A stretch of 64,000 bases of DNA from Tabrizicola caldifontis. GTDB taxonomy: Bacteria > Pseudomonadota > Alphaproteobacteria > Rhodobacterales > Rhodobacteraceae. A program made the translations under genes and the position numbers. The notes beneath the pieces are model-generated. The model saw nothing but the letters and a program-made list of their open reading frames with translations, was not told where the DNA came from and made no database searches. The stretch spans positions 62,001-126,000 of the forward strand of contig NZ_SIJH01000014.1 of assembly GCF_004762095.1 (NCBI RefSeq), given 5' to 3'. Below, in pieces: positions 42,330 to 50,779 of this stretch (position 1 is its first letter; every line of letters starts with the position of its first letter).

Positions 42330-43544
42330 ATGACCGACGACATGCTGCATGTCATGGAATGGCACAATGGGGAGAAGGACTATTCACCCTTCTCCGACGC
42401 CGAAATGAAGCGCCGTCAGGATGACGTGCGCGGCTGGATGGCCGCGAACAACGTCGATGCGGCGCTTTTCACCAGCTATCACTGCATCAACTACTATTCC
42501 GGCTGGCTTTACTGCTACTTCGGCCGGAAATACGGCATGGTGATCACCCAGGATGCAGCGACCACCATCTCGGCCGGGATCGACGGCGGCCAGCCCTGGC
42601 GCCGGACCTTCGGCAACAACATCACCTACACCGACTGGCGGCGCGACAACTACTACCGGGCAGTCCGGCAGCTGACGCCGGGCGTCAAGCGGCTGGGGAT
42701 CGAGTTCGACCATGTCAGCCTTGATTTCCGCAATGCGCTGGAGGCGGCGCTGCCGGGGGTGGAGTTCGTCGATGTGTCCCAGCCCTCGATGTGGATGCGC
42801 ACCATCAAGTCGGCCGAGGAGCAGAAGCTGATCCGGACTGGCGCACGGATCGCCGACGTGGGCGGCTGGGCCGTGGCCAAGGCCGTCAAGGCGGGCGTGC
42901 CGGAACATGAGGTCGCCATCGCCGGGACCAGTGCGATGATCCGCGAGATCGCAAGTTCCTTCCCCTTCGTGGAACTGATGGACACCTGGACCTGGTTCCA
43001 GTCGGGCATCAACACCGATGGTGCGCACAACCCGGTGACGAACAAGAAGGTCAAGTCGGGCGAGATCCTGTCGCTCAACACCTTCCCGATGATCTTCGGC
43101 TACTACACCGCGCTGGAGCGGACGCTCTTCTGCGACCATTGCGACGACGCGAGCCTCGACATCTGGGAGAAGAACGTCGCCGTGCACCGCCGGGGCCTGG
43201 AGCTCATCAAGCCCGGCGCCAAGTGCAACGAGATCGCGCTGGAACTGAACGACATGTACCGCCAGTGGGATCTCCTGAAATACCGCAGCTTCGGCTACGG
43301 CCATTCCTTCGGCGTCCTTTCGCACTACTACGGCCGCGAGGCCGGGGTGGAACTGCGCGAGGACATCGAGACGGAACTGAAGCCCGGCATGGTGGTGTCG
43401 ATGGAGCCGATGGTCATGCTGCCGGAAGGCACGCCAGGGGCAGGCGGCTACCGCGAACACGACATCCTGATCGTGACCGAGACGGGCGCCGAGAACATCA
43501 CCGGCTTCCCCTTCGGACCGGAACACAACATCATCAAGAACTGA
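42330..43544 (+). CDS. Creatinase (creatine amidinohydrolase, M24 fold)
   Basis: This 404-residue protein reads like the Pseudomonas creatinase across its length. Matching blocks include FTSYHCINYYSGWLYC, IDGGQPWRR, TDWRRDNY, MDTWTWFQSGINTDGAHNPVT with the catalytic His233, FGYGHSFGVLSHYYGREAG, and the ending GFPFGPEHNIIKN. Creatinase hydrolyses creatine to sarcosine and urea without a metal, unlike M24 peptidases, using the same pita-bread fold. It sits next to creatininase on the opposite strand. A hairpin plus TTTT follows the stop. Other M24 proteins are less likely given this match. Confidence 0.95.
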   Translation: MTDDMLHVMEWHNGEKDYSPFSDAEMKRRQDDVRGWMAANNVDAALFTSYHCINYYSGWLYCYFGRKYGMVITQDAATTISAGIDGGQPWRRTFGNNITYTDWRRDNYYRAVRQLTPGVKRLGIEFDHVSLDFRNALEAALPGVEFVDVSQPSMWMRTIKSAEEQKLIRTGARIADVGGWAVAKAVKAGVPEHEVAIAGTSAMIREIASSFPFVELMDTWTWFQSGINTDGAHNPVTNKKVKSGEILSLNTFPMIFGYYTALERTLFCDHCDDASLDIWEKNVAVHRRGLELIKPGAKCNEIALELNDMYRQWDLLKYRSFGYGHSFGVLSHYYGREAGVELREDIETELKPGMVVSMEPMVMLPEGTPGAGGYREHDILIVTETGAENITGFPFGPEHNIIKN

Positions 43545-43567
43545 TCCCCCATCGGGACAGCGCGACA

Positions 43568-43592
43568 GGGGCCGGGTCATCCGGCCCCTTTT
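43568..43592 (+). terminator. Rho-independent terminator of creatinase
   Basis: GGGGCCGG (43568-43575), loop GTCAT, CCGGCCCC (43581-43588), then TTTTGCTT. It lies 24 bases after the creatinase stop. Confidence 0.85.
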
Positions 43593-43613
43593 GCTTGCAC
43601 CCCGCGACCGGTC

Positions 43614-43638
43614 AAAGAAAAAGGGGGCCGAAGCCCCC
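43614..43638 (-). terminator. Rho-independent terminator of creatininase with UUCG loop
   Basis: On the minus strand GGGGGC, loop TTCG, GCCCCC, then TTTTTCTTT. The stem arms are 43623-43628 and 43633-43638. It lies 23 bases after the creatininase stop. The UUCG tetraloop is unusually stable. Confidence 0.87.
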
Positions 43639-43661
43639 CAGGTCACCAGGAAGAAGCTTGC

Positions 43662-44438
43662 TCAGCCGAACTCGGCCCGCAGCGCGCCGACGATGCCCGC
43701 CGTGCAGACCTCAAGCAGGATGTGCCCCTTTTCGACCGAGGCGTCCTTCGGCGAGGACAGCGTGCCCGAAGGGGGCGTCCATTCCGGCTTGACCGGGTAG
43801 ACGTCATAGGGCGGGAAGGTCGCGGGCGCATGATCCACCGCGCGGTCGAGATGGACGTGTTCGGGATGCAGCGCCAGCATCAGCGATGTCTCCAGCACGC
43901 CGCCGTGTTCCACGTCCCAGCCGGGGAAGCCGCCAGGATACAGTCTGGCGATGGCCTCCTTGTGGACGAAATCCCAGTAGGACAGCACCACGATTTTCAT
44001 GTCGGTGATCCCGTCCCAGCGCAGTTCGCGCAGGGCAAGGTCGATGCCTTCGACGATGAACCAGGAATTCTCGAAATGGCCGTTCACAAGGCAGATCCTG
44101 CGCACGCCGTGGCGGGCGAATTCCTTGATCACGTCCTTCAGTGCCGCGACCAGCGTGGCACCGTCCAGGCTGGTCGTGCCCGGCAGGTGGTTCCCGCCAC
44201 CCGATTTCTGGTGCGACTTGTAGCCATAGGTGAAGGGCGGCGCGACGAGGGCTCCGATTTCAAGCGCAACACGGCGGGCGAATTCGGTGGGCAGAAGCAC
44301 GTCCACATGCAAGGGCATGTGGTGGCCGTGCTGTTCCATCGACCCGATCGGAATCAGGATCGGTGTCTGCCCGCCCTTCACGGCGGCGGCGTAGTCGGGC
44401 CAGGTCAGCTCCGAGGCGAAGGCGGTCGTGTGTTTCAT
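43662..44438 (-). CDS. crnA: Creatininase (creatinine amidohydrolase)
   Basis: The 258-residue product matches Pseudomonas creatininase: PIGSMEQHGHHMPLHVDVLLP with metal ligands Glu35, His37 and Asp46, YGYKSHQKSGGGNHLPGTTSLDGATL, LVNGHFENSWFIVEGIDLALREL with His121 and Glu123, and YWDFV.. WDVEHGGVLETSLML. The enzyme interconverts creatinine and creatine and is normally a Zn/Mn hexamer. ATG 44438 starts the conserved domain. It is divergent from a LysR gene. With creatinase it completes creatinine to sarcosine plus urea. Confidence 0.95.
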   Translation of the reverse strand: MKHTTAFASELTWPDYAAAVKGGQTPILIPIGSMEQHGHHMPLHVDVLLPTEFARRVALEIGALVAPPFTYGYKSHQKSGGGNHLPGTTSLDGATLVAALKDVIKEFARHGVRRICLVNGHFENSWFIVEGIDLALRELRWDGITDMKIVVLSYWDFVHKEAIARLYPGGFPGWDVEHGGVLETSLMLALHPEHVHLDRAVDHAPATFPPYDVYPVKPEWTPPSGTLSSPKDASVEKGHILLEVCTAGIVGALRAEFG

Positions 44439-44441
44439 GGT

Positions 44442-44506
44442 GGCCAAAATCTGCAAGGGTGATGGCGAAAATCTACGTTGCCGGAGGTGCATAAGGAAAA
44501 TAGATT
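44442..44506. promoter_or_regulatory. Repeat motifs in the divergent creatininase/LysR control region
   Basis: The 99 bases between starts hold a direct repeat GGC-N-AAAATCT at 44442-44452 and 44464-44474, 22 bases apart (two helical turns), and an inverted pair AATCTA/TAGATT with the second arm at 44501-44506. These are candidate binding sites for the neighbouring LysR protein; no consensus was tested. Confidence 0.4.
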
Positions 44507-44537
44507 GCCCCAATGCTTCCATTGGCGGGGCAAATCC

Positions 44538-45431
44538 ATGGCACTGATCACCAATCTGCCCACCGACCTGTTGCGCACCTTCATCGCGGTAGTGGAACTG
44601 GGGGGGCATTCCAAGGCCGGGGCGGTGCTGGGCCGCAGCCAACCTGCGATTTCCCTGCAGATCCGGCGGCTGGAGGAACTGGTGCGCGCGCCCCTGCTGA
44701 CGCAGGAGGGCCGCGCCATCCACCCCACCCCCGCAGGCGAGGCGCTTCTGTCCTATGCCCGCGAAATGGTGCGCATCAACGACGAGGCGGTGCGCTGTTT
44801 CCACCGTTCGGACATGACGGGCGTGCTGCGCATAGGCCTGCCCACTGATTACGCGGTGGCCTTCCTGCAGAACACCCTCACCACCTTCCTGCGCCACCAT
44901 CCGGACGTGGACCTGGAGATTCACTGCGACCTGAGCCGCGAGTTGCATCAGCTGCTGCGTTCGGACGACCTGGACATCATCGTTGCCACCATGCCTACGG
45001 CGCGAATGCCCTATCTGTCGCGCGCCTGGGTGGAACAGCCGATCTGGGCCGCGTCGGAAACCATGGCCATGGACGCATCGCGCCCGGTGCCGCTGGGCGC
45101 CCATCTGGAAGGCTGCGACTACCGCGCTCGAATGATCGACGCGCTGGACGGTGCGGGCCGGCGCTGGCGCATCGTCTATACCGGCCCTGGCATCTCAGGC
45201 CTTCAGAACGCGGTGCTGAACGGTCTGTGCGTGACGGCGTTGACCCAGGCCACCATGCTGCCCGGGATGCGCGAACTGGGCGAGGACGAGGGATTCCCGA
45301 AGCTGGAGCCGCTTCGGGTCGGGCTGTTCTACAAGCATCCACGCCTGTCTGCCGCAGGCCTTCAACTGGTCAGCGACCTTGTGGCCGGCCTGGAAAGCGT
45401 GGGCTCGGGCGTCAAGACCTTGCCGGGCTGA
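44538..45431 (+). CDS. LysR-family regulator of the creatinine/creatine locus
   Basis: Starting at ATG 44538 the 297-residue product has a LysR HTH (LLRTFIAVVELGGHSKAGAVLGRSQPAISLQIRRLEELV) and an effector domain (GVLRIGLPTDYAVAFLQNTLTTFLRHHPDVDLE). An in-frame TTG at 44478 is open but lies in the control region. It is divergent from creatininase and upstream of the ABC importer on the same strand. The natural hypothesis is induction by creatinine, creatine or a product; sequence alone does not show the ligand. Confidence 0.9.
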   Translation: MALITNLPTDLLRTFIAVVELGGHSKAGAVLGRSQPAISLQIRRLEELVRAPLLTQEGRAIHPTPAGEALLSYAREMVRINDEAVRCFHRSDMTGVLRIGLPTDYAVAFLQNTLTTFLRHHPDVDLEIHCDLSRELHQLLRSDDLDIIVATMPTARMPYLSRAWVEQPIWAASETMAMDASRPVPLGAHLEGCDYRARMIDALDGAGRRWRIVYTGPGISGLQNAVLNGLCVTALTQATMLPGMRELGEDEGFPKLEPLRVGLFYKHPRLSAAGLQLVSDLVAGLESVGSGVKTLPG

Positions 45432-45557
45432 CGAAATCGCGGGCCATATAACCGGCGCTTATCAATGGATTTCAAGAACCGATTTTGTTCTCGCCTTCCG
45501 GTCTCCTAACGTCGCAGCCACGAACACGGCCTTGCGGCTGAAACGGGGAGTATCGGA

Positions 45558-46682
45558 ATGACCAAGACCGAGGTGATTGCAAAGGGCCTGACGCGCCGGG
45601 CACTTCTTGCGTCCGGGGCAGCCGCGCTGGCCACGCCCATGCTGTCGCGCCGCGCCTTCGCCGCGCCGACCGAGTTGACGATGCTGGCCTGGTATGGCCA
45701 CGCCGAGCCCGACATCGTGGCCGAGTTCGAGGCCGAGAACAACGTCAAGTTCGTGCCGAAATACTACACCGGCGGTGACAACATGCTGGGCCTGATCTCG
45801 CAATCGCCGCCCGGCACCTTCGACGTGATCCTGTCGGATGCCGAATATGTCCAGGCGCTGAACGCGGCGGGCTATGTCGAGGAGCTGGACCCGGCCGACT
45901 ATGCGCTGGATGAATACTTCCCCGAATTCCAGCAGTTCCCGGGAAACTGGCAGGACGGCAAGCTGTTCTCGCTGGTCACGCGCTTCGGGTTCCTCGGCGT
46001 GGCCTACAACACCGACGCGCTGACCGAGGCCGAAGCTGCGACCTACAATGTGTTCTGGGCCGAAAAGCTTAAGGGCAAGGTCGGCCATTTCGACTGGCAC
46101 CTGCCCAACCTCGGGCAGATGAGCCTTCTCAACGGCAACCCCGCCCCCTACGACATCGACGAGACCGCCTGGGAGGCGGTCAAGGAAAAGACCATGTCGC
46201 TGCGGCCCCAGATCGGCGGGTTCTTCGACTATGGCGGCACCTTCTCGTCCTTGAACGACGGGCAGATGCTGGCCTTCTGCGGTATCGGTGACTGGATCAC
46301 CGGGGTTCTGGAGAAGAACGGCGCCAAGGTGCGCACCGTGATCCCGGAAGAGGGCGGGCTGCAATGGTCGGAATGCTTCTCGATCGGCAAGGGTTCGCAG
46401 AAGGCGGATCTCGCGAAGAAGTGGATCCAGTACATCACCTCGGCCAAGGGTCAGGCAAAATCGGCCCAGATGGCGGCCTATCCGGCGCTGATCCCGAACG
46501 CGAAGGGCTGGGAGGTCCTGCAGGCCGAGAACCCGGATGAAGCCAGGCGTCAGGGCATGACCAAGGACGCCGGCAACGTGATGGACATGATCCGGGCTGG
46601 CCGGATCAAGTATCGCGAATGGCCCATCCAGCAGGATCTTGAGACCTGGAACGACTTCTGGTCCGAATACAAGGGTGCCTGA
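45558..46682 (+). CDS. ABC transporter substrate-binding protein, polyamine/PotD type
   Basis: The 374-residue product has a twin-arginine-like signal ([26 protein letters not shown]). A type II periplasmic binding fold follows, with PotD-like opening (LTMLAWYGHAEPDIVAEFEAENNV), NLGQMSLLNGN, and ending WSEYKGA. A long leader with a GGGGAG ribosome-binding site precedes ATG 45558. It begins the importer operon (2-base gap to the permease). Creatine and creatinine carry guanidino groups, so a cation-binding PotD-type protein is a reasonable receptor; this is inference. Confidence 0.9.
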   Translation: MTKTEVIAKGLTRRALLASGAAALATPMLSRRAFAAPTELTMLAWYGHAEPDIVAEFEAENNVKFVPKYYTGGDNMLGLISQSPPGTFDVILSDAEYVQALNAAGYVEELDPADYALDEYFPEFQQFPGNWQDGKLFSLVTRFGFLGVAYNTDALTEAEAATYNVFWAEKLKGKVGHFDWHLPNLGQMSLLNGNPAPYDIDETAWEAVKEKTMSLRPQIGGFFDYGGTFSSLNDGQMLAFCGIGDWITGVLEKNGAKVRTVIPEEGGLQWSECFSIGKGSQKADLAKKWIQYITSAKGQAKSAQMAAYPALIPNAKGWEVLQAENPDEARRQGMTKDAGNVMDMIRAGRIKYREWPIQQDLETWNDFWSEYKGA

Positions 46683-46684
46683 CC

Positions 46685-47617
46685 ATGGTGCCTGAGCCCC
46701 AGGCCCTGACATTGCCGGCTGGCGGGGCTTCCCTGCCGGCCGGCGCCCCATCAGCCGGAGTGCGCCCGACGATGCGACGCAGGATTTCCCTTTACGGCAT
46801 GACCTTCGCACTGCCGCTTCTGATCTGGCAGATCCTGTTCTTCTTCTTTCCGCTGGTCTTCCTGGTCGCCCTGTCGTTCTGGACGGTCAGGAACTTCGCC
46901 ATGCAGCCCGATTTCGACACGGTGAACTGGGCGACGATGTATGGCCGCACGGTCTTCTGGCAGGCCTACGGCACGACGCTGGCGCTGGCCGCCGCGGCAT
47001 CCGTTCTGACCAGCTTGCTGGCCTTTCCCGCCGCCTATGCCATCGCCTTCAAGCTTTCTGACAGCGCCCGGCGCTGGGCGATCTTCCTGATGGTGATCCC
47101 CTTTTTCACCAGCTACCTGGTGCGCGTCTATTCCTGGCAGATCTTCCTGTCGGACAATGGCATCATCAATGTGATCCTTGGCTGGGTCGGCCTCGGGCCC
47201 TTCCCGATGCTGAACACGGTCTTGGCCACGATGATCGGCTACCTCACGCTCAGCTTCCCGCTGGTCGTCCTTCTGCAACTCTTCAGCCTGGCCTTCATCG
47301 ACCGCACCCTGATCGAGGCCGCGCACAACCTGCGCTGCGGGCGCGTCCGCACCGTGTTCGAGGTGGTCATCCCCTCGGCCCGCACCGGCCTGGTCATTGC
47401 AGCGCTCTTTGCCTTCATCCTGTCGTTCGGCGATTTCGTAAGCCCGATCTACCTGGGCGGCGGTGACCCGACGACCCTGTCGATCCTGATCACCGACACC
47501 ACAAAATCCGGCCAGCAGTGGCCCCGTGCAGCAGTCATTGCACTGACCATGATCGGCACGCTGATGGTCGTGGCCTTCGCTGCCGTCAAATTCGCCTACA
47601 AGGGGAAATCGACATGA
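46685..47617 (+). CDS. ABC transporter permease, PotB/PotH type
   Basis: The 310-residue protein has about six membrane segments starting near residue 36 (TFALPLLIWQILFFFFPLVFLVALSF). It carries the EAA-type cytoplasmic loop (EAAHNLRCGRVRTVFEVVIPSA) that docks the ATPase. The N-terminal 30 residues are Pro/Ala-rich and poorly conserved, so ATG 46772 is an alternative start. It overlaps the next permease by four bases (ATGA). Substrate specificity resides in the binding protein. Confidence 0.9.
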   Translation: MVPEPQALTLPAGGASLPAGAPSAGVRPTMRRRISLYGMTFALPLLIWQILFFFFPLVFLVALSFWTVRNFAMQPDFDTVNWATMYGRTVFWQAYGTTLALAAAASVLTSLLAFPAAYAIAFKLSDSARRWAIFLMVIPFFTSYLVRVYSWQIFLSDNGIINVILGWVGLGPFPMLNTVLATMIGYLTLSFPLVVLLQLFSLAFIDRTLIEAAHNLRCGRVRTVFEVVIPSARTGLVIAALFAFILSFGDFVSPIYLGGGDPTTLSILITDTTKSGQQWPRAAVIALTMIGTLMVVAFAAVKFAYKGKST

Positions 47618-48435
47618 GCGGTGCCGCCGATCTGAACCGCAACCGCGCGGTGGACTGGGCGCTGATGGTCTACATCCTGCTGGCCTATGCCTTCGTCTTC
47701 GCCCCCATCGCGGCAAGCTTCGTCTTCAGTTTCAATTCCGACCGCTTCCCCTCGCTGCCGCTGGGAGAGTTCTCGCTGGAATGGTATCGTGCGGTGGCCA
47801 ACGACCCGCTGGTCTGGCAGGGCGCGCGCAACACCCTTCTGGTGGGTGTCGCGGTCGGCGTGATCTCGACCGTTCTGGGCTTCGGGGCGGCCTACACCGA
47901 CTATCGTTACCGGTTCGCGGGCAAGCAGGTCTATCTGGCCCTGGCGCTGCTGCCGCCGACGATTCCCGTGGTCATCCTGGGGCTTGCGATGCTGGCCTAT
48001 CTGTCCCGCATCAACCTGTCGGGCAATGCGCTGTCGGTCATCATCTCTCATGTCGTCGTCTGCGCCCCCTTCGCCATGGCGATCATCCGGCTGCGCCTGT
48101 CGCAGATGGACCCGGCGCTGGAGCCCGCCGCCTGGAACCTCGGCGCCTCGGAATGGGCAGCGATGCGGCATGTCATCATTCCGTTCTGCGCGCCCGCGAT
48201 CCTTGGCGCGCTCTTCATCACCATGGCCGTCTCGTTCGACGAATTCGCCGTGGCCTGGTTCGTCTCGGGCCTGAACGAGACGCTGCCCGTCAAGGTGCTG
48301 GGCTTCCTGCAAGGTCAGGTCAGCCCGCGGATCAACGCGATCGGCACCTTCGTCTTCATCCTTTCCATGAAGCTTGTGATCCTGGCACAGCTGCTGCTGT
48401 CCGGTCGCAGCGCCAGGGTGCCCGAAAAGGAGTAG
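47614..48435 (+). CDS. ABC transporter permease, PotC/PotI type
   Basis: Starting at ATG 47614 the 273-residue product has six membrane segments (ALMVYILLAYAFVFAPIAA first) and an EAA loop near residues 170-185 (EPAAWNLGASEWAAMRHVIIPF). The F-N-S-D-R segment after TM1 is typical of PotC-like permeases. It pairs with the preceding permease to form the membrane channel. Five bases separate its stop from the ATPase start. Confidence 0.92.
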   Translation: MSGAADLNRNRAVDWALMVYILLAYAFVFAPIAASFVFSFNSDRFPSLPLGEFSLEWYRAVANDPLVWQGARNTLLVGVAVGVISTVLGFGAAYTDYRYRFAGKQVYLALALLPPTIPVVILGLAMLAYLSRINLSGNALSVIISHVVVCAPFAMAIIRLRLSQMDPALEPAAWNLGASEWAAMRHVIIPFCAPAILGALFITMAVSFDEFAVAWFVSGLNETLPVKVLGFLQGQVSPRINAIGTFVFILSMKLVILAQLLLSGRSARVPEKE

Positions 48436-48440
48436 GCCCC

Positions 48441-49520
48441 ATGACCCGCGATACCCTGGTTTCCTTCGAAGGTGTGGTGAAACGTTTCGGTGCCTTCGTC
48501 GCCGTGCAGAAGCTGGATTTCGAGATCAAGAAGGGCGAGTTCCTGGCGATCATGGGCTCGTCGGGCTGCGGCAAGACCACGACGCTGCGGATGCTCGCGG
48601 GGCTCGAGGCGCCGACCGAGGGCGTGATCCGCCTTGCCGGCAAGCCGATCAACGACCTGCCGACCTGGTGCCGGGACACACCTATGGTCTGGCAGAGCCT
48701 TGCGCTGTTTCCCTTCCTGAACGTCCGCGAGAACGTCGAATTCGCGCTGAAGATGCGCGGCGTGGGCAAGGCGGAACGGCGGCGGCGGGCCGAACACTGG
48801 CTTGAACGGATGCAGATCGCCGAATTCGCCGAACGCAACATCTCGCAGCTTTCAGGAGGCCAAAGGCAGCGGGTGGCGCTTGCGCGGTCCTTGGTGGTGG
48901 AGCCAGAGATCCTGCTTCTTGACGAGCCGCTTTCGGCGCTCGACGCGGCGCTGAAGGTCCGGATGCAGTCGGTGCTGAAGAACCTGCAGCGCGAGACCGG
49001 GATCACCTTCGTCTATGTCACGCACAGCCAGTCCGAGGCCTTTTCCATGGCCGACCGCGTGGTGATCATGAGCCGGGGCAAGATCGAACAGATCGGCACA
49101 CCGCAGGAAATCTACCGCACCCCGCGCACGCGGTTCGTGGCGGATTTCCTGGGATCGTCAAACCTTTTCACGGGTACCGTCCGCAAGGCTGGCGCAGGGC
49201 TGGAACTTGACAGCCCGGTCGGTCGTCTGCGGCTTGCCGGCGGGGCTGAGGCCGGAACGTCGGCCACGATCACGGTTCTGGATACCAAGACCCATCTCAG
49301 CGTTGCCCCGCCGGCCGGGAATGTGAACGCGGTGCCGGTCAGGGTGATCGGCGAGGAATTCGTCGGCGCGACCGCGACAGTCTATCTGGAGACGGCGCAG
49401 GGCCAGGAAATCCGGGTGCAGAAGGGACATGACGAACTGGCCGACCTGCCCCTTGGCATCGGTCAGCCACTGTTTGCCTGGTGGATGCCCGAAGATGCCC
49501 ATCTTGTCGCGGAAGGCTGA
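48441..49520 (+). CDS. ABC transporter ATPase, PotA/PotG type
   Basis: The 359-residue product has Walker A GSSGCGKTTTL, signature LSGGQRQRVALARSL, Walker B ILLLDEPLSALDAAL and H-loop YVTHSQSEAF. A C-terminal TOBE domain (residues about 280-350) follows. It energises the preceding two permeases. The substrate-binding protein, permeases and ATPase form one tight operon. Confidence 0.93.
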   Translation: MTRDTLVSFEGVVKRFGAFVAVQKLDFEIKKGEFLAIMGSSGCGKTTTLRMLAGLEAPTEGVIRLAGKPINDLPTWCRDTPMVWQSLALFPFLNVRENVEFALKMRGVGKAERRRRAEHWLERMQIAEFAERNISQLSGGQRQRVALARSLVVEPEILLLDEPLSALDAALKVRMQSVLKNLQRETGITFVYVTHSQSEAFSMADRVVIMSRGKIEQIGTPQEIYRTPRTRFVADFLGSSNLFTGTVRKAGAGLELDSPVGRLRLAGGAEAGTSATITVLDTKTHLSVAPPAGNVNAVPVRVIGEEFVGATATVYLETAQGQEIRVQKGHDELADLPLGIGQPLFAWWMPEDAHLVAEG

Positions 49521-49523
49521 GCC

Positions 49524-49718
49524 ATGATCCCCTTTCACAGCGCACGTCTTGGTCCCGCCATTGCCGATCTGGCGAAGGAAAGGCACGCAACAAGCCTGAT
49601 GTTTCTGCAGGGTGGCGGTATCAGCCCGGAGCAGCTGCGTCGGGTCCCTCTGCCCGGTTTCCCGTTCGCAGCCCTTCTGCGGCGACTTGCTTCTGGACTT
49701 GCCGGCAAAAAGCGCTGA
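49524..49718 (+). CDS. Possible small protein (64 aa) after the importer operon
   Basis: A start codon three bases after the ATPase stop opens a 64-residue frame (MIPFHSARLGPAIADLAKERHATSLMFLQGGGISPEQLRRV). It ends in a basic, hydrophobic tail (LLRRLASGLAGKKR). The tight spacing looks operonic, but no clear ribosome-binding site or known family is visible. It could be chance. Confidence 0.4.
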   Translation: MIPFHSARLGPAIADLAKERHATSLMFLQGGGISPEQLRRVPLPGFPFAALLRRLASGLAGKKR

Positions 49719-49759
49719 AAGGCTGATCCGGGCCCCACCGTTTCAGGGAAGGAATCGTC

Positions 49760-50779
49760 GTGACACGCCATGCCGATGAACAGAGCTTTCACAGCGCAAC
49801 GGCCGTGATTCCCCGCGGGGTGGCGCATTTCCGTCTGCCCGGCCCCGCCCCGACACGCGACTTCGCCTTTCTCGCCCTGCCGCGCTTCACGCTGCTGGCC
49901 TTTTCCTCGGCTGTCGAGCCGTTGCGTATCGCCAATCAGCTGACCCAGCTGCCGCTGTATCGCTGGCGGCTGGTCAGCATGGACGGAAAACCCGTCGAAA
50001 GCTCGGCCGGGGTGCGGATCGAGGTGGATCAGGGTCTGGCCCCCCTGGGACGAGAGGTCACGGTGGTGGTCTGTTCCGGCACCGATGCAAGCCAGGCTGC
50101 CGACCGCAAGGTGCTGAACTGGCTGCGCGACCATTCCCGGCGGGGCGGGGGGCTGGGGGCGATCTGCACTGGGGCCTATACGCTGGCCCGTGCCGGACTT
50201 CTGGGCGACGACACGCCTGCGGTCCACTGGGAAAACCGTCCGGCGTTCCGCGAGCTTTTTGATGTCGAGCCGCTGGAACAGATCTACGTGATCGGTCGCA
50301 AGCACTTTTCCTGCGCCGGCGGCGAGGCCGGGGTTGACATGATGCTGGCCCTGATCGCCCAGGACCATGGGCAGAAGCTGGCCGATGCCGTGGCCGAGAT
50401 GTGCCTGCACAGCCGCCGGCGCGAAGCGAACGTGACTCAGAAAAAGGTCTATCCCGCCCCGATGACAGCCCGCCACCCGGCCATCGCCCGGGTGATTGCG
50501 GCAATGCAGGAAAACATCGCGACCCCGCTGGATCAGGACGAACTGGCTGCGATCTTCGGCCGTTCGCCCCGGCACCTGGAGCGGGTATTCAAGGCGGTGC
50601 TGCAGGAAACGCCGAAAAGCTACTATCTTGGCCTGCGTCTGGAAGAGGCGCGCAATCTGCTGGCCGACACCACGATGTCGATCCTGGAGGTCGCCATCGC
50701 CACGGGCTTCAATTCCCGCTCAAGTTTTTCAAAGGCCTATCGCAGCCGGTTCGGCATAAGCCCCTCTCGCTATCGCTAG
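49760..50779 (+). CDS. GlxA/GbdR-type transcriptional regulator (DJ-1/GATase-like plus AraC HTH)
   Basis: GTG 49760 follows GGGAAGGAA. The 339-residue protein has an N-terminal class I amidotransferase-like domain (FAFLALPRFTLLAFSSAVEPLRIAN, then the elbow GAICTGAYTLA) and a C-terminal AraC HTH pair (residues about 235-335; LAAIFGRSPRHLERVFK and ILEVAIATGFNSRSSFSKAYRSRFG). Such GbdR/CdhR/SouR-like regulators commonly control betaine, carnitine, dimethylglycine or sarcosine catabolism. That fits the sarcosine produced by this locus. The ligand itself is not shown. Confidence 0.92.
   Translation: MTRHADEQSFHSATAVIPRGVAHFRLPGPAPTRDFAFLALPRFTLLAFSSAVEPLRIANQLTQLPLYRWRLVSMDGKPVESSAGVRIEVDQGLAPLGREVTVVVCSGTDASQAADRKVLNWLRDHSRRGGGLGAICTGAYTLARAGLLGDDTPAVHWENRPAFRELFDVEPLEQIYVIGRKHFSCAGGEAGVDMMLALIAQDHGQKLADAVAEMCLHSRRREANVTQKKVYPAPMTARHPAIARVIAAMQENIATPLDQDELAAIFGRSPRHLERVFKAVLQETPKSYYLGLRLEEARNLLADTTMSILEVAIATGFNSRSSFSKAYRSRFGISPSRYR

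Follow-up and report, generated by a model that had tools for sequence, protein, structure and literature searches.

The question raised by a short catabolic locus of Tabrizicola caldifontis, a Paracoccus relative, is what its importer carries and whether its genes work as one system. The window, that is, the whole stretch of 64,000 nucleotides considered here, covers positions 62001-126000 of contig C6 (NZ_SIJH01000014.1) in a 3.48-Mb genome, and contains at 42330-50779, in this order, genes for a creatinase (+), a creatininase (-), a LysR-family regulator (+), a four-gene ATP-binding cassette (ABC) importer (+) and a GATase-AraC regulator (+). We favour, with a probability of roughly three in four, the reading that these genes form a self-contained module for creatinine import and degradation under one LysR regulator, and we infer that the importer is specific for creatinine. 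The original prediction, made from the letters of this stretch, had assigned the locus to creatinine/creatine use and given it an importer of its own; its core is borne out by gene linkage and by a shared promoter element, and the part given to the AraC regulator and the term "polyamine-type" are weaker. Two observations go beyond it: the occurrence of the importer follows that of creatininase, not that of creatinase, and a 45-bp LysR-type element with a T-N11-A core, described here for the first time, lies before creatinase, between creatininase and the LysR gene, and before the importer.

The importer accompanies creatininase

Linkage was followed in the best 80 named loci of at least 592 creatinase-encoding stretches, picked by creatinase, in which creatininase was called at ≥60%, the window-type receptor (the solute-binding protein of the importer) at ≥55% and the LysR regulator at ≥45% identity. 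The receptor is present in 28 of the 31 creatinase loci with creatininase and in 0 of the 49 without, and the LysR regulator in 31/31 and 0/49, respectively. As for the three receptor-less creatininase loci, L006 and L010 run into a contig end shortly past LysR, with the element still visible beyond LysR in L010, and in L034 the receptor was not found in the 1.9 kb that continue past LysR. Creatinase is flanked by 4 kb or more on either side in 34 of the 49 creatininase-free loci, and where both genes occur the receptor lies no more than 2.9 kb from creatinase; for those 34, the absence of the receptor is thus well supported. The loci are kin to each other, so that all such counts describe non-independent events (L121 and L160 were left out of one locus comparison as duplicates); the same gene set is nevertheless kept in at least three gene orders (e.g., L004, L014 and L032).

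Since the 80 loci had been picked by creatinase, genomes drawn evenly from the class were also surveyed. Among 385 genomes (E≤1e-50), the receptor was found in 12, creatininase in 11 and both in six, the genome studied here included; in all six the two genes share a contig and are separated by no more than 4.5 kb (Fisher p 9e-8 counted by genome, 2e-6 counted by genus). Moreover, within 148 relatives, all eight genomes with a receptor match of ≥74%, again including this one, have both enzymes beside the receptor. The linkage to the enzymes in relatives, on which the original prediction depended, thus held.

These counts also bear on the first alternative, according to which creatine is the substrate imported, and the role of creatininase is confined to balancing creatine against creatinine or to a side supply. 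Creatininase catalyses a reversible reaction, and creatinase does accompany the window-type importer, both in the 80-locus set (by search design) and in the eight closest genomes. However, the receptor is missing from every creatininase-free creatinase locus, and it persists in a Rhodovulum locus (L187) where a CodA-type deaminase gene is present and creatinase is absent. In addition, 26 of the 49 creatininase-free loci, and none with creatininase, have a different complete importer (all four parts ≥45% identical), which is found in Roseibium, Stappia, Hoeflea and others; in L049 (5288-11230) this Roseibium-type importer lies directly before creatinase, and in L064 two of its parts stand at a contig end. 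It is a candidate creatine importer. Uptake of creatine by the window-type importer therefore seems improbable, at about one chance in eight.

A common LysR-type element

The intergenic block between creatininase and LysR is conserved (40 distinct rows aligned). A 45-bp matrix was built from these blocks, L013 and L034 being dropped for gaps, and was applied to whole loci on both strands in a leave-one-locus-out manner. Across the 64-kb window its best scores are 51.4 at the intergenic block, 13.3 before the receptor and 5.0 before creatinase, with -4.6 for the next. Then, for each gene, the highest score in fixed orientation within 20-160 bp upstream of the start codon was compared by rank with all other positions of the locus, known sites being masked. 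Over 38 loci, the site before a promoter-proximal creatinase came among the top three of its locus in 34/34 cases (first in 32), and that before a promoter-proximal receptor in 28/28 (first in 26). No site was found where creatinase (0/3) or the receptor (0/7) sits behind creatininase on the same strand, a position in which a promoter of its own is not needed; at control starts, it was found before neither the ATPase (0/33) nor AraC (0/7).

The main sites keep a constant orientation to their gene, at listed distances of 48-136 bp (medians 56 and 64), and eight columns are invariant across 47 sites, including T11 and A23. These two form T-N11-A, the consensus of LysR-type boxes. The motif thus occurs in a conserved element before the LysR gene and its putative targets, and the LysR protein is its predicted binder. 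A hold-out model, R2, was built without the sites of the window or of four fetched genus-mates, its training set of named loci possibly including the same genus. When R2 was run over the 3.48-Mb genome at E≤10, exactly three matches were returned, all in the locus: before creatinase (E 1.2e-5), between creatininase and LysR (1.5e-5) and before the importer (3.0e-4). R2 found no site in L041, L049, L081 or L114.

The element was also seen at two further transport genes. In Microvirga (L032:11398-12586) it precedes a second importer, possibly one for creatine that is subject to the same regulation, with a receptor that shares 39% identity with the Roseibium type. In Gemmobacter lanyuensis (L048:284-2011) it precedes a permease of the D-serine/D-alanine/glycine type (763 bits, cut-off 732).

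The enzymes and the receptor

Creatininase converts creatinine into creatine, and creatinase splits creatine into sarcosine and urea. The creatininase of the window passes the TIGR04448 equivalog cut-off (371.1 versus 235 bits), and its alignment to 1j2t (379 bits) places E35, H37, D46, H121 and E123, which we take to be the five metal ligands, at the expected positions. The creatinase aligns along its entire length with solved creatinases (7yto, 851 bits; 1chm, 591 bits) and has H233, presumably the catalytic histidine, within GINTDGAHNP. The residues assigned to both enzymes in the original prediction are thus all in place, and both proteins appear, as judged by sequence, to be ordinary members of known families. 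The closest named creatinases, among the best 80 of the at least 592 stretches, belong to Paracoccus and Defluviimonas. Creatinase relatives also occur in 418 plasmid records, among them 264 of Klebsiella and 101 of Acinetobacter; taking the best places over all records, 279 lie at 60-80% identity and 127 below 60%.

The importer is complete, with a binding protein, two permeases and an ATPase. A second alternative holds that it is broad for small cyclic amides and amidines, such as creatinine, N-methylhydantoin and cytosine-like bases, with creatinine as one of several substrates. It draws on sister loci that encode a D-hydantoinase, a cytosine deaminase, a nucleoside deaminase, a polysaccharide-deacetylase-family hydrolase or an amidase. 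Nevertheless, in L125, L126 and L189, which encode such deaminases or the hydantoinase, the receptor residues differ, and this suggests separate specificities over one broad specificity; the residues are kept in the creatininase-linked loci and in L187. Hence, a broad importer is also improbable, marginally more so than one for creatine.

With regard to the fold, the solved structures nearest to the receptor are PotD, YdcS and PotF, at 17-18% identity, so that it has the fold of the polyamine receptors PotD and PotF. The equivalog cut-offs of these families lie far above its scores (43.3 of 582 bits for PotD and 32.1 of 636 bits for PotF). Passages of PMC4096761 give E36, E171 and D257 as the acidic ligand residues of PotD; in our own reading of the sequence alignment they correspond to G47, N184 and E272 of the receptor, one of the three still being acidic. 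The originally proposed "PotFGHI-like importer" is therefore complete and alike in fold, and lacks both the scores and two of the three PotD acids; it appears only distantly PotD/PotF-like, "polyamine-type" describing its fold, not its ligand. An ordinary polyamine importer standing by chance beside the enzymes, as the fold and the label "spermidine/putrescine ABC transporter" would have it, is rejected as very unlikely in view of the linkage, the element shared with the enzymes and the lost ligand acids. Of 20 listed plasmid records, 15 name a product at the receptor match, and 11 of these 15 read "spermidine/putrescine ABC transporter substrate-binding protein", in Paracoccus, Mesorhizobium, Microvirga, Leisingera and Azoarcus, among others. 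For creatininase-linked receptors, this label is unsupported here.

The proposed module and its weak points

In the creatinine module that we favour, the binding protein, which has a Tat-like signal, would capture creatinine, and the two permeases and the ATPase would bring it into the cell. Creatininase would open it to creatine, and creatinase would cut creatine to sarcosine and urea. The LysR regulator would bind T-N11-A before creatinase, between creatininase and lysR, and before the importer operon, and might switch on the three units together in the presence of creatinine or creatine. The pathway would be finished by sarcosine oxidase and urease, whose genes lie in other parts of the genome.

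The genes for these last steps had been placed outside the window by the original prediction, and they were indeed found on other contigs: three proteins score above the soxA cut-off (C52:150537, C5:74066 and C2:65489), as compared with 0 of 14 control genomes, and one urease alpha subunit (ureC) is above its cut-off at C1:198517. Therefore, the pathway can be completed in this organism, and these genes may be tied to the module. The whole-genome scan gave no match to the element at the soxA and ureC genes.

Several points weigh against the creatinine module. Binding and transport of creatinine, as well as expression of the genes, are inferred here. The 80 loci, being the best of at least 592, lean to near relatives, and among those without creatininase the 4-kb flanks on either side are reached in only 34 of 49. 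Importer homologues occur without creatininase (L123, L124, L126, L158, L161, L185, L187, L188, L189, L221 and L222), and L125, L127, L163 and L164, which have a creatininase-family gene and no typical creatinase, show altered receptor residues. Azoarcus (L186) has the enzymes and the importer without the module LysR and without the element, so that the gene link outlasts LysR-type control. Concerning the element itself, one of 35 TM1 starts also has a site of rank ≤3, and R2 recovers 11 of 12 genus-mate sites, one of two in L124 and one of two in L187. Finally, other entry routes are possible, since the genome encodes a Roseibium-type receptor (46%) at C7:109273-110328 (L226) and a second creatinase-like M24 protein (57%) at C12:246616-247797 (L114).

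The gene for this second creatinase-like protein was rejected as part of the module, as it has neither importer genes nearby nor an element. The NCS1 carrier of the Azoarcus locus was unmatched in the genome, in a search without positive control.

Regulators and gene arrangement

The LysR protein scores above the cut-offs of PF00126 and PF03466. Its start is most likely 44538 rather than the TTG at 44478, because the conserved element occupies 44491-44535. The second regulator had been described as a GbdR-like AraC/GATase protein; its two domains and its place downstream of the importer agree with this, whereas its score on the GbdR model (294 bits, cut-off 480) falls short, and identity with GbdR was rejected. 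It resembles CahR and GbdR in domain make-up and differs in staying below that cut-off. CahR is reportedly a creatine-responsive GATase-AraC regulator of P. putida, and by analogy a response of the window's AraC protein to creatine is plausible. It is possibly an accessory, second and local regulator of the module; not all relatives with the module have it next to the importer, and the window's copy has no element in front.

In relatives, the AraC gene follows the ATPase in four genus-mates (L116, L118, L119 and L120; 73-77%) and in L121 (45%), and the outer neighbours that the module has in the window were not found in these loci. In 12 genus-mates, 10 of them lacking an importer match of ≥74%, a closer copy (82-88%) is found at another place; these copies lie near a gene that we take to be tex-like in four of five gene lists, the fifth ending at a contig end. 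In the genome studied here, the tex-like gene is on a different contig (C4:57693). The AraC gene may have been moved or copied, in one direction or the other. The sole AraC copy above 43% identity in this genome is that of the module. A GATase-AraC gene also flanks creatinase in Azoarcus (L186) and in Burkholderia vietnamiensis G4 (L191).

All eight genes are intact open frames in the span given by the original prediction (Table 1). The two enzyme genes are convergent, tail to tail, with terminator-like hairpins in between; the position of these is apt, and the hairpin count of the region is statistically weak (9 versus 6.3 +/- 2.3 in shuffles). A promoter scan of the locus gave matches at chance level only. 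The glycerate kinase gene upstream and the fatty-acid-hydroxylase gene downstream were rejected as members of the module, both being unmatched in the other fetched module loci (flanks ≤10 kb).

Table 1. Positions of the genes and of the putative control elements of the locus, numbered from the first nucleotide of the window.
Feature	Coordinates	Strand	Evidence
LysR-type element before creatinase, T-N11-A, 56 bp from start codon	42229..42273	-	matrix and hold-out model R2
Creatinase (creatine amidinohydrolase), 404 aa	42330..43544	+	851 bits to 7yto; H233; PF00557, PF01321
Terminator-like hairpins, both strands, between convergent enzyme genes	43567..43639	.	43567-43589 (+); 43639-43622 (-)
Creatininase (creatinine amidohydrolase), 258 aa	43662..44438	-	TIGR04448 371 bits; 379 bits to 1j2t
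LysR-type element common to creatininase and LysR	44491..44535	+	conserved intergenic block; matrix; model R2
LysR-family regulator, presumed activator/sensor of the module	44538..45431	+	PF00126, PF03466
LysR-type element before importer operon, 65 bp from start codon	45448..45492	-	matrix; model R2
Solute-binding protein, Tat-like RR signal, putative creatinine receptor	45558..46682	+	
ABC permease 1	46685..47617	+	PF00528; PotH/PotB-like, under cut-off
ABC permease 2	47614..48435	+	PF00528; PotC/PotI-like, under cut-off
ABC ATPase with TOBE domain	48441..49520	+	PF00005, PF08402
GATase1-AraC regulator, accessory	49760..50779	+	PF12833 and PF01965

Relation to known systems

The creatininase (1j2t) and creatinase (1chm) pathway of Pseudomonas shares both enzyme families with the locus, as well as the products sarcosine and urea; the locus differs in having its own ABC importer and LysR-type elements. 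PotABCD and PotFGHI are alike in fold and subunit make-up, and differ in the low receptor identity, the two lost PotD acids, the cut-offs missed and the linkage to creatininase. The Corynebacterium glutamicum protein CrnT is not an ABC system. Parts of PMC8864220 describe CreT, of the major facilitator superfamily (MFS), as the creatine carrier of that species and CrnT as its creatinine carrier, both regulated by AmtR, and an MFS carrier gene upstream of creatinase in P. putida NBRC 14164. As far as those parts go, CreT and CrnT resemble the present system in offering a dedicated entry of creatine or creatinine tied to degradation enzymes; in contrast, they are MFS or non-ABC carriers under AmtR, and the locus has an ABC importer and LysR-type elements. 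The same parts report growth of Roseobacter denitrificans on creatine in the absence of CreT and leave its uptake route open.

In the portions of open-access PMC full text available, no description of a bacterial ABC importer for creatinine (or creatine) was found, and the portions of PMC6742649, PMC3141670, PMC4158056 and PMC12625717 name no such importer for creatinine. Together with its LysR-type elements, the importer seems to be a hitherto unnamed variant of the PotABCD-type ABC importers that takes up creatinine. If so, the "spermidine/putrescine" label of related records would be corrected, and one answer would be given to the question, raised in those parts of PMC8864220, of how such nitrogen reaches bacteria that lack CreT. 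Furthermore, the receptor, the regulator and the binding element would make up a compact set usable for creatinine sensing.

Variant loci

Some loci combine the importer with other enzymes; the family tests of their neighbours took 10 proteins per batch rather than every neighbour. For instance, on a Rhodovulum sp. P5 plasmid (L187:6859-12971), a LysR gene (49%), two matrix matches and the importer are accompanied by a CodA-type cytosine deaminase that replaces creatininase and creatinase. Passages of PMC6742649 count cytosine deaminase among the enzymes that hydrolyse creatinine; on that account, creatinine would be a substrate common to the creatininase and CodA routes, and L187 is possibly a creatinine deaminase locus. 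In L123, L124, L158 and L161, which lack creatininase, the window-type importer is followed by a polysaccharide-deacetylase-family hydrolase, the same in all four and, in L124, assigned to PF01522 and weakly PuuE-like. The next gene encodes a small deaminase, as judged by a Pfam test in L124, by eye in L158 and by a weak match in L161. A LysR gene (46%) and the element are also present in L124, and the element was not found in L123, L158 and L161.

It is conceivable, if rather doubtful, that the LysR gene, the element and the importer constitute a portable creatinine-acquisition cassette joined to differing degradation routes. Its partners would be creatininase and creatinase in most of the loci seen, the CodA-type deaminase in L187, and the PF01522 hydrolase with the small deaminase in L124. 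Such a cassette would imply undescribed routes for creatinine or N-methylhydantoin, and might bear on Roseobacter litoralis, which according to parts of PMC3141670 grows on creatinine, the first enzyme not having been recognised in its genome. In L185 and L188, where creatininase is absent and no clear element was seen, an importer homologue (55-63%) stands beside an annotated amidase, a polysaccharide deacetylase and a urea-carboxylase-associated protein.

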